Positions 7,678 to 12,200 of a DNA stretch of 27,147 nucleotides are shown piece by piece. The notes beneath the pieces are model-generated. The model did no database searches. It saw only the letters and a program-made list of their open reading frames with translations, and was not told the origin of the DNA. The stretch spans positions 1 through 27,147 of the IMG/VR virus record IMGVR_UViG_3300037502_003003, one strand, 5' to 3'. Positions within the stretch are counted from its first letter, which is position 1, and the number at the start of each line of letters is the position of its first letter. The position numbers and the translations under genes were made by a program. Source of the stretch: a virus.

Positions 7678-8439
7678 ATGGAAGTAGCAAAAATAGGGAT
7701 AACACCCGCACAAATCGAAACATTAGCACAGGCAGGCGTTATTCCTGCAGGAACACCAGCCCCACAGGTAGAAGTATTTGCAGAAAGTTGCAGGCAGCAT
7801 GGATTAAGTCCATTTAAAAAGGAAATTTATTTAGTGGCATATAACAGCCGCGACGGAATGAAATACCATACCATTGTAGGTATAGATGGTTTGCAACAAA
7901 AAGCCGCACGCACAGGGAGGTTTGCCGGTATAGATGAAGAACAATATAACAGGGAATCAAACGGAACGTACAAAACAGCAAGCGAATTAAAGGCAGCTAA
8001 AGAAATGCCTATTTCATGTACAGTGACTGTTTGGGCTATTGTTGGTGGAATCAGATGTCCATTTACTGCTACGGTATTATTTGCAGAATATTATCCTGCT
8101 GTTTCATCCGGAAAAGATAGCTATTCAAAAGCCGCAACTATGCCTTTTAATATGATAGCCAAATGTGCCAGGGCGAAAGCGTTAAAAGTAGCTTTTAGTG
8201 ATGAACTATCAGGACTACACATTGAAGAAGAAAAAGCCGCTTTTGAAGATACTACGATACAAGCTGCGGAAGTTAATCCATCTGTAGAAATTGATGTAGA
8301 TGAGTTAAGGATTAAAATACTTTCTTGCAAAAATAGGGAGGAGTTAACTTATTTATACAAGTCAAATTCTGGATACAAACAATACGCTGCATTATTTACC
8401 GAAATGGCTAACGCCTTAAATACAAAGCCAAATGAATGA
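7678..8439 (+). CDS. bet: Bet/RecT-family single-strand annealing protein
   Basis: Promotes annealing of complementary single strands during phage recombination and recombination-dependent replication. Residues 33-85 carry the Bet pattern: VFAESCRQHGLSPFKKEIYL, a short loop, then HTIVGIDGLQQKAARTGRFAG. The conserved core continues to about residue 185 with PFNMIAKCARAKALKVAFSDELSG. The variable C-terminal third (DVDELRIKILSCKNREELTYL) probably contacts SSB or the nuclease. It overlaps the exonuclease gene by 8 nt, the usual two-gene recombination cassette. Confidence 0.93.
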   Translation: MEVAKIGITPAQIETLAQAGVIPAGTPAPQVEVFAESCRQHGLSPFKKEIYLVAYNSRDGMKYHTIVGIDGLQQKAARTGRFAGIDEEQYNRESNGTYKTASELKAAKEMPISCTVTVWAIVGGIRCPFTATVLFAEYYPAVSSGKDSYSKAATMPFNMIAKCARAKALKVAFSDELSGLHIEEEKAAFEDTTIQAAEVNPSVEIDVDELRIKILSCKNREELTYLYKSNSGYKQYAALFTEMANALNTKPNE

Positions 8440-9235
8440 AATAACCCATCTTAGTTTTTCAAGACTAAAAGCCCTTTCCCATTCTCCATTATGCCTAAAA
8501 AGGTATATTGAACAAACGCGTACATCTACGAAAGCAATGGATGAAGGTACTTTATTGGATTGTGTTTTATTTGAACCTGAAAGTTTTAACGATAGGTTTT
8601 TTATCATGCCAGAAGGTATAAAGAAACCAACAAGCGCACAAATTAATGCTAAAAAACCATCGGCCGAAACATTGGAACAAATTACTGTTTGGGAATCAAT
8701 CCAAATGAGAATTGGTAAAAGAATTGTTATAAATCAGGAACAATACAACGATGCTTTAAATATTGCTAGTGCCGTTATGGATAATACTACTGTCGCATTT
8801 AATGGTTTAATGAACATGAATAATTTTCAATTTCAAGTAACCGTTGAATTTTTTTACAAAGGATTTAAACACAAAGGAATCAAAGACGCGGAAGGAGTAG
8901 ATAGAAATGGTAAACGCGTTATATGGGATTTAAAACGTATGGGTGCCCGTTCTGGTGAACAACTTGTAAGGGCACAAATACGACATAATCAATACGATTT
9001 ACAAGCCGCTATTTATTGCCACAAATTTGATGAAATAAACGAGCCTGTAGATTATTTTATTATAGCAGTTGATAATGAAGGATATGTAACACCTTTTAGA
9101 ATTTCCCGTGATGCTAGGGAAAAAGCCAGATGGCAATGGAATAGGCTGATCGCTGCGGCCCACAGAGTAAATATGGAAGGTTTGGATATGGGACCCGAAT
9201 TTTGGGCAGATAGCGAAGGATTTTTTGACTTTTAA
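8432..9235 (+). CDS. PD-(D/E)XK exonuclease (phage exodeoxyribonuclease VIII-like)
   Basis: Probably degrades one strand of double-stranded ends to make the single strands used by the Bet protein. The N-terminal LSFSRLKALSHSPLCLKRYI and DEGTLLDCVLFEPE segments fit the phage PDDEXK exonuclease family. The active site is seen as GIKDAEG (Asp152) and VIWDLKRM (Asp166, Lys168), and NQYDLQAAIYCH supplies the QxxxY-type helix of RecB-like nucleases. The 267-aa length is normal for a phage enzyme. Overlap with bet by 8 nt implies coupled production. Confidence 0.9.
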   Translation: MNEITHLSFSRLKALSHSPLCLKRYIEQTRTSTKAMDEGTLLDCVLFEPESFNDRFFIMPEGIKKPTSAQINAKKPSAETLEQITVWESIQMRIGKRIVINQEQYNDALNIASAVMDNTTVAFNGLMNMNNFQFQVTVEFFYKGFKHKGIKDAEGVDRNGKRVIWDLKRMGARSGEQLVRAQIRHNQYDLQAAIYCHKFDEINEPVDYFIIAVDNEGYVTPFRISRDAREKARWQWNRLIAAAHRVNMEGLDMGPEFWADSEGFFDF

Positions 9236-10011: not shown

Positions 10012-10115
10012 AGCAAGGTGGCGGAATTGGTTAACGCAGTGTATGGGTCGCAACCATTGGGATTACTTGTTCCAACAAACAAACAAGTTTGCAGGTTCGA
10101 ATCCTGCCCTTGCTA
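10012..10115 (+). tRNA. Atypical class II-like tRNA, isotype undetermined
   Basis: The acceptor stem is perfect (AGCAAGG at 10012-10018, CCTTGCT at 10108-10114, discriminator A10115). The D arm reads GCG-GAATTGGTTAA-CGC (10021-10037), like tRNA-Leu. The T arm is GCAGG-TTCGAAT-CCTGC (10091-10107). The middle is not standard. The only reasonable anticodon hairpin, TATGG-GTCGCAA-CCATT (10042-10058), has a T-T mismatch and would give anticodon CGC; a rival fold pairs CAGTG (10037-10041) with CATTG (10055-10059) around a 13-nt loop. The variable arm would be 32 nt with a 7-bp stem (ACTTGTT 10065-10071, AACAAGT 10082-10088). At 104 nt it is longer than ordinary tRNAs. No CCA is encoded. It could be functional, degenerate or a tRNA mimic. 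Confidence 0.7.
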
Positions 10116-10213: not shown

Positions 10214-10225
10214 AAAATGATAATC

Positions 10226-10636
10226 ATGGCAATAGAAAACATTTATGACAAATATTTTAAAAATTCAGAACTAAGCGTTGATGAACTAATAAAAGCATCG
10301 GGCAGGAATCCAGACTATGACGAAAACAAGGCATTTAGGACAAATGAAAATAAACTACGCTACGACCTTATCCCACCATTGGCAAACCGCGAATATGCCA
10401 AAGTATGGACACAGGCATTAGGAAAATATCCGGAGGGTAATTGGGAGAAGGGAATGCCATGGACAGAGGTAATAGCCTCCGCTATGCGTCACTTGGAAGC
10501 GATAAGGCTAGGTGAGGATATAGATGCAGAATCAGGACTACTCCATGCTGCACACTTGCAATGTAATGCTGCAATGCTGACTGAATATTATTTTACTAAA
10601 CAAGATTATGATAACCGTAAAAAGTACGACAAATGA
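10226..10636 (+). CDS. dATP/dGTP diphosphohydrolase-like protein
   Basis: The protein matches, from memory, the N-terminal domain family of phage dATP/dGTP diphosphohydrolases: RYDLIPPLANREYAKVWTQALGKYPEGNW, then a KGMPWTEVIASAMRHLEAIRLGEDID block and ESGLLHAAHLQCNAAMLTEYY. The His and Glu/Asp residues of the MRHLEA, GEDIDAESG and HAAH segments would bind metal and nucleotide. Such enzymes trim purine deoxynucleotide pools during infection. An ATG at 10217 is also in frame; 10226 has the ATC-ATG context. It heads an operon that ends with the dCTP deaminase-like gene, so both sides of the pool are covered. Confidence 0.75.
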   Translation: MAIENIYDKYFKNSELSVDELIKASGRNPDYDENKAFRTNENKLRYDLIPPLANREYAKVWTQALGKYPEGNWEKGMPWTEVIASAMRHLEAIRLGEDIDAESGLLHAAHLQCNAAMLTEYYFTKQDYDNRKKYDK

Positions 10637-10902
10637 AACAAACAGCAGTTGAAATTTTAGAAATAAGTTTACTTGGCATTGTTTCTTTTGATTCAGAAGT
10701 ATTTAGAAATAAATACAAAGAAAGTTTTAAAATTGCCAAAGAAATGGAAAAGGAGAATACTATTAATGCTCATGTAACTGGATTAATTGACCCTTTAATA
10801 ATGAAAAACTACAAAGGACTTTCAGTTGATGAAATTAAAGTAGAGATAACAAAACAAGCTGAAGAATATTACAACGAAACTTTTAAAAACGAAACAAAAT
10901 GA
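10633..10902 (+). CDS. Shared-tail small protein 1 (89 aa)
   Basis: First of four consecutive small genes whose products end in (Y)YNETxKxxTK. It begins KQTAVEILEISL and contains FKIAKEMEKENTINAH, the Q/K-A-K-x-MEKE-x-I block I remember from a common small protein of Bacteroidota phages. It then ends EEYYNETFKNETK. Compared with relatives it has an insertion around residues 50-70. Function is unknown. Overlaps of 4 nt (ATGA) on both sides show coupled translation. Confidence 0.7.
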   Translation: MKQTAVEILEISLLGIVSFDSEVFRNKYKESFKIAKEMEKENTINAHVTGLIDPLIMKNYKGLSVDEIKVEITKQAEEYYNETFKNETK

Positions 10903-11141
10903 CTAAACAAACAGCAGTTGAATATTTATTAGAAGAATTTAGTGCAATTATTGGAAGAGTTAATTTTACAGTTACTCAAGACTTATTTATAAGAGATGCC
11001 GTTATAAAAGCCAAACAAATGGAAAAGGAGCAGATAATCAAAGCCTATGATGAATCAAATAAACGATTATGTTTACAATGCACTGATTTTAAAACTGGAA
11101 TAAAATATTACAACGAAACTTTTAAAAACGAAACAAAATGA
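10899..11141 (+). CDS. Shared-tail small protein 2 (80 aa)
   Basis: A paralogue of the first: TKQTAVEYLLEEF at the start, AVIKAKQMEKEQIIKAYDESN in the middle and KYYNETFKNETK at the end, which is the usual form of this unknown Bacteroidota phage family. The last 36 nt, including the stop and the next ATG, are identical to those of the previous gene. It overlaps both neighbours by 4 nt. No enzymatic motif is seen. Confidence 0.7.
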   Translation: MTKQTAVEYLLEEFSAIIGRVNFTVTQDLFIRDAVIKAKQMEKEQIIKAYDESNKRLCLQCTDFKTGIKYYNETFKNETK

Positions 11142-11455
11142 AACTATATACAGAAGACCAAGTAAGACAGGCAATTAAAAAAAGTAGAAGTATAAAAAAC
11201 AAAGACGGAGATGTTTTTGATTATTATTTTTCAGATGATGAAGCAATTGATTTTTTGACACCAATAGAATTTCCTAATTACAAAGAAATACACAAACAAG
11301 CTCAAGTTGTTGAGAGGTATCATGAATCAATGTCACTTGAAGAAAGTTGTGCATCAATGGGAAGATTTCATGGATTTTTTCATGGCGTTTATTACATAAT
11401 GGAAAAATTGCAATATTTTGATTACAACGAAACTTTTAAAAACAAAACAAAATGA
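11138..11455 (+). CDS. Shared-tail small protein 3, chimeric (105 aa)
   Basis: Only the last residues (DYNETFKNKTK) match the neighbouring genes. The body is different: it starts KLYTEDQVRQAIKKSRSIKNK, has an acidic FDYYFSDDEAIDFL stretch and a centre SCASMGRFHGFFHGVYYIMEKLQYF. The shared 3' end at DNA level suggests that an unrelated gene body was joined to this tail by recombination. Function is unknown. It overlaps both neighbours by 4 nt. Confidence 0.65.
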   Translation: MKLYTEDQVRQAIKKSRSIKNKDGDVFDYYFSDDEAIDFLTPIEFPNYKEIHKQAQVVERYHESMSLEESCASMGRFHGFFHGVYYIMEKLQYFDYNETFKNKTK

Positions 11456-11670
11456 GTAAACAAACGGCAGTTGAATGGTTTAATGATGAAATAATAATTC
11501 ATTTAAATTTTGACCAAAGATTATATCTTAAAGATATTTTTAAACAAGCTAAAGAAATGGAAAAGGAACAGATAATGGAGGCTTTTGAAGATGGCAATGA
11601 ACAAGGTTTTCTTTGCAAAGAAGGAATTGAATATTACAACGAAACTTATAAAAAAATAGAGACAAAATGA
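11452..11670 (+). CDS. Shared-tail small protein 4 (72 aa)
   Basis: Another paralogue: SKQTAVEWFNDEI at the start, FKQAKEMEKEQIMEAFEDGNEQG in the middle and IEYYNETYKKIETK at the end. It is the shortest member, and its tail has diverged most at DNA level. Its stop overlaps the ATG of the dCTP deaminase-like gene by 4 nt. Confidence 0.7.
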   Translation: MSKQTAVEWFNDEIIIHLNFDQRLYLKDIFKQAKEMEKEQIMEAFEDGNEQGFLCKEGIEYYNETYKKIETK

Positions 11671-12200
11671 TTTTAACAGACAAAACAATCATTGACGAAA
11701 TTGCATTGAAAAACATCGTCATTGAGCCTTTAATAGAAGCAAACATTGGGACTAATAGTGTTGATTTAACGTTATCCAAAACTTTGTTAATGTACACCGA
11801 CCATGTTCTTGACGTCAGGAAAAAGCCCCAAACGGTTGATATTATTATTCCCGATGAAGGATTAATTTTAAAGCCCGGTATCCTTTATCTTGCATCAACC
11901 GTCGAATATACGGAGACACTTCGCCACGTTCCAATTATTCAAGGCAAATCATCATTAGGTAGGTTAGGTTTATTTGTCCACATAACCGCAGGTTTTGGAG
12001 ATGTGAATTTTAAAGGACATTGGACATTGGAGCTTGCGTGTATCCAGCCTGTCAAGATTTACCCGGGCATGAAAATAGCACAAATATGCTACCATGACAT
12101 TTCAGAAATGCCATACACCGATTACGCATCAAAAGCCGATGCAAAGTATAAGAATCAGGGAAGCGATCCAGTAGCTTCAAAAAACTATTTAAACAAATAG
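11667..12200 (+). CDS. dcd: dCTP deaminase / dUTPase-family protein
   Basis: Probably converts dCTP to dUTP (or handles dUTP), feeding dTTP synthesis. The trimeric dUTPase-like fold is seen in SVDLTLS (31-37), GKSSLGRLGLFVHITAGFGD (93-112) and KGHWTLEL with the catalytic Glu (122), followed by YPGMKIAQICYH. The GKSSLGRLG segment carries the Ser/Arg residues of the active site. The length, 177 aa, is close to bacterial Dcd. It overlaps the last gene of the small array by 4 nt and shares the operon begun by the dATP/dGTP hydrolase-like gene. Confidence 0.88.
   Translation: MILTDKTIIDEIALKNIVIEPLIEANIGTNSVDLTLSKTLLMYTDHVLDVRKKPQTVDIIIPDEGLILKPGILYLASTVEYTETLRHVPIIQGKSSLGRLGLFVHITAGFGDVNFKGHWTLELACIQPVKIYPGMKIAQICYHDISEMPYTDYASKADAKYKNQGSDPVASKNYLNK

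Follow-up and report, generated by a model that had tools for sequence, protein, structure and literature searches.

The window analysed here, a virus record of 27,147 bp, contains four consecutive small genes that are best explained as an array of interchangeable small-protein cassettes occupying one slot in the early-type replication operon of a Bacteroidota phage. We hold this account, taken as a whole, with considerable confidence. Each gene is made of two modules, front (N) and back (C), that meet at a central seam some 30 nt long; its start is conserved, and so is its tail, which continues into the next ATG. Recombination at start, seam and tail would move the parts. The slot and the neighboring genes that bear on it are as follows.

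7678..8439, + strand: RecT-family single-strand annealing protein, possible local recombinase (Pfam PF03837, E 1.5e-20)
8432..9235, + strand: exonuclease VIII-like / DUF3799 protein, RecT partner (Pfam PF12684; phrog_412)
10217..10636, + strand: left slot border, dATP/dGTP diphosphohydrolase N-terminal domain protein (Pfam PF18909, E 1.2e-28)
10633..10902, + strand: gene 1, family-1 member of 89 aa (ORF; family profile match, E 3e-18), with N half KQTAVEILEISLLGIVSFDSEVF... and C half VTGLIDPLIMKNYKGLSVDEI...
10734..10758, + strand: central joint of gene 1, GCCAAAGAAATGGAAAAGGAGAAT... (family joint consensus)
10867..10902, + strand: tail joint of gene 1 into the gene 2 ATG (direct repeat)
10899..11141, + strand: gene 2, family-1 member of 80 aa (ORF; N-half DNA comparison)
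11010..11038, + strand: central joint of gene 2, GCCAAACAAATGGAAAAGGAGCAGATAAT (identity to L320/L321/L002 stops there)
11106..11141, + strand: tail joint of gene 2 into the gene 3 ATG (direct repeat)
11138..11455, + strand: gene 3, family-2 (YTEEQV) body, residues 1-95, with a family-1 tail, residues 96-105 (orthologue comparison)
11423..11455, + strand: tail joint of gene 3 into the gene 4 ATG (direct repeat; missing in the orthologues L320/L321)
11452..11670, + strand: gene 4, canonical family-1 member of 72 aa (ORF; AlphaFold2 model)
11548..11576, + strand: central joint of gene 4, GCTAAAGAAATGGAAAAGGAACAGATAAT (identity to L147/L196 stops there)
11632..11670, + strand: diverged tail joint of gene 4 into the dCTP deaminase ATG (direct repeat)
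11667..12200, + strand: right slot border, dCTP deaminase (Pfam PF22769, E 2.7e-40; NCBIfam TIGR02274)

The four ORFs follow one another on the + strand with an ATGA overlap at each junction and, together with the direct repeat in the DNA, they bear out the four-gene array with a common 3' tail that an initial annotation had described. It had also reported the tail, stop and next ATG as identical in two copies and nearly so in a third, which is what we found: the tail repeat TATTACAACGAAACTTTTAAAAACGAAACAAAATGA is the same in genes 1 and 2, gene 3 departs from it by one mismatch from TTACAACG through the next ATG, and gene 4 retains TATTACAACGAAACTTATAAAAA and diverges after it. Motif comparison likewise agrees that genes 1, 2 and 4 are paralogous, with KQTAVE, AK(E/Q)MEKE and YYNET(F/Y)K in common, and that gene 3 (MKLYTEDQVRQAI...) has a body unrelated to theirs and the same tail. 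The anchors of the array are three (start, middle and tail), beyond the tail noted at first. A tRNA-like gene was also detected at positions 10012-10115 (+; Rfam tRNA, 44.9 bits; missed by ARAGORN); a long insert points to class II, and the anticodon loop appears by eye to read GUCGCAA, which would be unusual with a Leu-type body.

Scans of viral contigs, protein searches and the scan of a genome collection yielded at least 481 distinct members of family 1 at no fewer than 392 loci. The contig scans used degenerate codon patterns for tail, start and middle; the figures are lower bounds, and the contigs sampled are often fragments that may be incomplete. The family plan is M(K)QTAVEWL - variable - QAKEMEKEQI - variable - YYNETF, with the consensus xKQTAVEWL - variable - QAKEMEKEQIIxA - variable - EQYYNETFK. 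Between one and five copies were present in 49 of 51 records (nearly all of at least 30 kb), and only seven family-1 loci, all metagenome-assembled and mostly Bacteroidota, were found in the collection of bacterial and archaeal genomes. Searches of Pfam, PHROGs and NCBIfam gave no above-cut-off match for the array members (weak sub-threshold matches at most), and the literature search returned no paper containing QTAVEWL or MEKEQI. Family 1 is a large, undescribed family that annotation libraries miss. Two window members had no match in cultured phages. Flavobacterium phage elemo, a cultured case, carries a member gene (MNTAVEWLVEQ...EQAKAIEKNQI...YYNEKFKK, with the motifs confirmed by eye in the translation); the match is weak (E 0.03) and came from a consensus-like composite query rather than a natural sequence. 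Two composite queries and one consensus query, all non-natural, served as search probes only. In addition, proteins of 124 aa in L110, L114, L152, L172 and L181 start with MLNETDLEAWEYYNETYKNKD, an N-terminal YYNETYK motif.

An origin of the tail by chance or by codon bias, the latter named as a possible objection in the initial annotation, is excluded, because hundreds of viral contigs carry the tail, start and middle motifs, the tail codons are non-preferred, and near-identical orthologues of gene 3 exist without the tail.

The contents of the corresponding slot in related phages support cassette exchange by what would be recombination at common sequences. Eleven distinct related slots hold one to four cassettes each in varying combinations and order, with no fixed four-gene set, and the same-slot gain, loss, reordering and swapping uphold the earlier proposal that cassettes are exchanged between common sequences. 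The N half of gene 2 is 94-97% identical in DNA to L320, L321, L002, L004 and L007, and the C halves differ. Gene 4 and gene B of L147 have 99% DNA identity in the N half and 74% in the C half, and the C half of gene 1 is 86% identical in DNA to that of a chimeric gene in L147, in which a different front body is joined at MEKE to a gene-1-like back half. Such shared half-genes reach 94-99% DNA identity, versus 70-84% in the flanking genes (74-84% for the dGTPase-like gene and 70-74% for dCTP deaminase). In the window alignments, identity is lost at GAAATGGAAAAGGAGCAGATAAT, the central seam. The first interpretation is thus supported in part and needs a change: exchange mainly takes the form of half-gene swaps at the mid-gene seam ATGGARAARGARCAG, which the first reading overlooked, and the tail is one of three joints. 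In L109, the same slot contains a further chimera, in which the dCTP deaminase start (MILTDKTI) is fused to an unrelated EEVAENF body.

Exchange was then measured across family 1 on the variable parts only, with modules counted as shared at 70% or more and backs as unrelated below 40%. Among the matches listed, 131 of 164 front-sharing pairs had unrelated backs, 127 of 156 back-sharing pairs had unrelated fronts, and 26 pairs shared both halves. The inventory comprises at least 349 fronts and at least 349 backs; of the modules that recur, 62 of 68 fronts and 66 of 72 backs had two or more partners, again among the matches listed, and the front module KTAxQEVFSDLEKLHP occurs in at least 12 members with 11 different backs among them. 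As a control, small ORFs outside the family, 2,531 of them from these loci, gave 14 discordant versus 358 concordant pairs, compared to 65 versus 24 for family 1 under the same method (among the matches listed). Maximum-likelihood breakpoints in strongly discordant pairs place the end of front identity at a median of +20 nt from the seam ATG and the beginning of back-shared identity at a median of -11 nt, so that the breakpoints fall within short conserved DNA (seam interval -11 to +20 nt). Flanks were less than 10% alignable within 3 kb in 63 of 130 strong mosaic pairs among the matches listed; thus, exchange crosses unrelated backbones. Same-locus pairs seldom have a module in common, and donors are therefore mostly other phages. 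Identical C-terminal extensions, present in 11 of 38 same-locus pairs (among the matches listed) versus 4.3% between loci, point to some local exchange. Assembly artefacts were considered as a source of the mosaics and rejected, at least 44 members being found in two or more loci. The variable halves are under purifying selection (dN/dS 0.25 in each), which indicates working proteins whose diversity reflects reassortment and divergence rather than random mutation and which argues against mutational hypervariability.

The initial annotation had further taken gene 3 to be chimeric. This stands and can be refined: gene 3 is a chimera across two separate modular families, because its body falls in family 2 and near-identical orthologues differ at the tail. 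The body is 97-98% identical in DNA to the L320 and L321 orthologues, which are without the YNETF tail; the L322 orthologue has it. In the window and L322 the gene closes with YNETF or YNETY followed by a short run of basic residues, and in L320 and L321 it ends in DNHKYETK, which by eye looks like the terminus of the dGTPase-like gene upstream. Family 2 (L431-L497), made up of relatives of the gene-3 body, has the anchors MKLYTEEQV, PIELPSDEEIE and GAKWMRDKIQGG (GAKWM), likewise in non-preferred codons. The same front-seam-back plan was recognized in 57 members, and 37 of 49 front-sharing pairs had unrelated backs. Other cross-family chimeras were observed in L274, L341 and L461, which combine a QTAV or YTEEQL front with back parts of other families. 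A possible third modular family, KAKELV...AKQCALIAVDEI...VKQEIEKL (L089, L102 and L044), has 19 members; both of its two back-sharing pairs have unrelated fronts, a small sample.

The joints of family 1 are conserved in DNA beyond what their protein sequence demands, with short conserved DNA lying at the start, seam and tail borders. Within the seam, Ala is encoded by GCC in 72% of cases versus 8% elsewhere in the same genes, Lys by AAG in 65% versus 16%, Glu by GAG in 85% versus 18% and Gln by CAG in 69% versus 9%; in the tail, TAC encodes Tyr in 71-85% versus 30% elsewhere in the same genes, and AAC encodes Asn in 84% versus 25%. The search patterns were codon-degenerate, and these non-preferred anchor codons were therefore not imposed by the search. 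Excess codon information, measured against the family's own codon usage after removal of half-sharing members and with one member kept per locus, had a median of 0.31 bit at the anchors; for 405 conserved columns drawn from 19 control families, the median was 0.00 (P = 1e-6). This is the stricter version of the control, with a corrected background; an earlier, cruder one, which relied on related families of small size and had a poor background, gave a less clear result. An RNA or translational signal, rather than recombination, could also be the source of this synonymous conservation.

One such signal would be translational coupling, with the tail-stop-ATG DNA serving mainly as the start-region element of the next gene and its repetition following from that role. 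This is a real possibility, although we consider it doubtful as the main explanation. The ATGA overlaps in all four genes and the A-rich lead fit it, as do the C-terminal codons of family 2, which often spell AAGGAGGTAACAAATG and so combine a ribosome-binding site with the start of the next gene; however, it leaves unexplained the central seam, the swapping of half-genes and the NETF codons about 20 nt upstream. A coupling role of the tail can also be true in addition to exchange.

Somewhat less probable, and in our view unlikely, is that the anchors are kept because the protein needs them as a small helical core, with the mosaics representing ordinary phage mosaicism that survives where parts are compatible. 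The AlphaFold2 model of gene 4 has, at moderate confidence, three helices (residues 6-17, 20-50 and 56-71; pLDDT 80, pTM 0.59), on which the three anchors sit, protein-level conservation is strong, and the purifying selection on the modules is also in its favor. Against a purely protein-based need, the anchor codons are atypical and are common at synonymous sites beyond the conserved columns of other families, and discordance is far above the level in the control ORFs.

More improbable still is the second idea of the initial annotation, here that the tail is a protein tag for a common partner, acquired by diverse effector bodies. Front bodies of several unrelated kinds do carry the tail (gene 3, KTALQ-type, L029 and L147), but the gene-3 body exists without it, the helical model of gene 3 has low confidence in the tail, and the seam behaves likewise inside genes.

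If the cassette account is correct, the anchors, being alike in DNA as well as in protein, would allow incoming or paralogous copies to recombine at start, seam or tail while staying in frame. Exchange at the seam would swap half-genes, exchange at tail and start would lead to whole genes being gained, lost or reordered, and the A-rich tail would provide the start region of the next gene. Co-infecting phages may carry out the exchange by homologous recombination or by annealing, with whichever recombinase is present. The window itself encodes RecT and its partner exonuclease upstream of the array; as a general agent, RecT fits the window but was found in only 3 of 51 records. ERF was present in 8 of 51 and AAA_24 above cut-off in 6 of 51, so that no single recombination enzyme goes with the family; given the RecT and ERF counts, different phages probably use different enzymes or rely on one from the host. 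A diversity-generating retroelement or an integron-like site-specific system, for which the bracketing of variable segments by constant ones might speak, has a negligible chance of being the source, since reverse transcriptase was found in 0 of 51 records (positive controls were detected) and integrase in 2 of 51, none in the window, and the variation is module replacement at dN/dS 0.25.

The gene 4 model had no match in PDB and only weak matches in BFVD, to uncharacterised phage proteins; the gene 3 model had no significant match in PDB, and a sequence search of solved structures returned nothing useful. Encoded in a replication/nucleotide-metabolism operon, small, variable in copy number and subject to module turnover, the products would fit a role as helical accessory proteins in host takeover or counter-defence, which we propose tentatively, at somewhat less than even confidence.

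In Neisseria pilin and Borrelia vlsE, cassette recombination is guided by conserved blocks on either side of variable segments. The arrangement of conserved blocks around variable segments is alike here; however, no silent store was seen in the genome, and donors are mainly other viruses. Short conserved boundary sequences have been proposed for homologous recombination at module borders in lambdoid phages (PMC3029335). The likeness lies in a short shared sequence at module borders, whereas in the present case one seam is intragenic, recurs in hundreds of members and parts two large module sets. Protein fragments shuffle continually between otherwise unrelated phages, with receptor-binding proteins, endolysins and replication proteins highlighted (Smug et al. 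2023, PMC10684548); in contrast to such domain mosaicism, the present proteins are tiny, uncharacterised and early-type, with standard DNA-conserved joints. Start-associated sequences upstream of gene starts in cluster K mycobacteriophages, with a proposed role in translation initiation (PMC3203893), are similar as short repeats beside many small-gene starts, whereas the repeats here are coding and occur at start, middle and end.

Whether phage mosaicism arises through boundary sequences or illegitimate joining has long been argued, in large part because boundary sequences have rarely been found (PMC3029335). Here, two families contain them within their genes in hundreds of cases, with conservation that extends to synonymous sites, and the question thereby becomes open to direct test. 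Bacteroidota phages might share a combinatorial pool of small proteins, built from several hundred fronts and several hundred backs and reaching across families, with joints kept constant in DNA because they promote exchange; we regard this broader reading as plausible, if a little short of an even chance. The findings also offer an explanation for small, uncharacterised phage proteins of a kind that annotation libraries miss, and they suggest how viruses may renew their accessory proteins without raised mutation rates.
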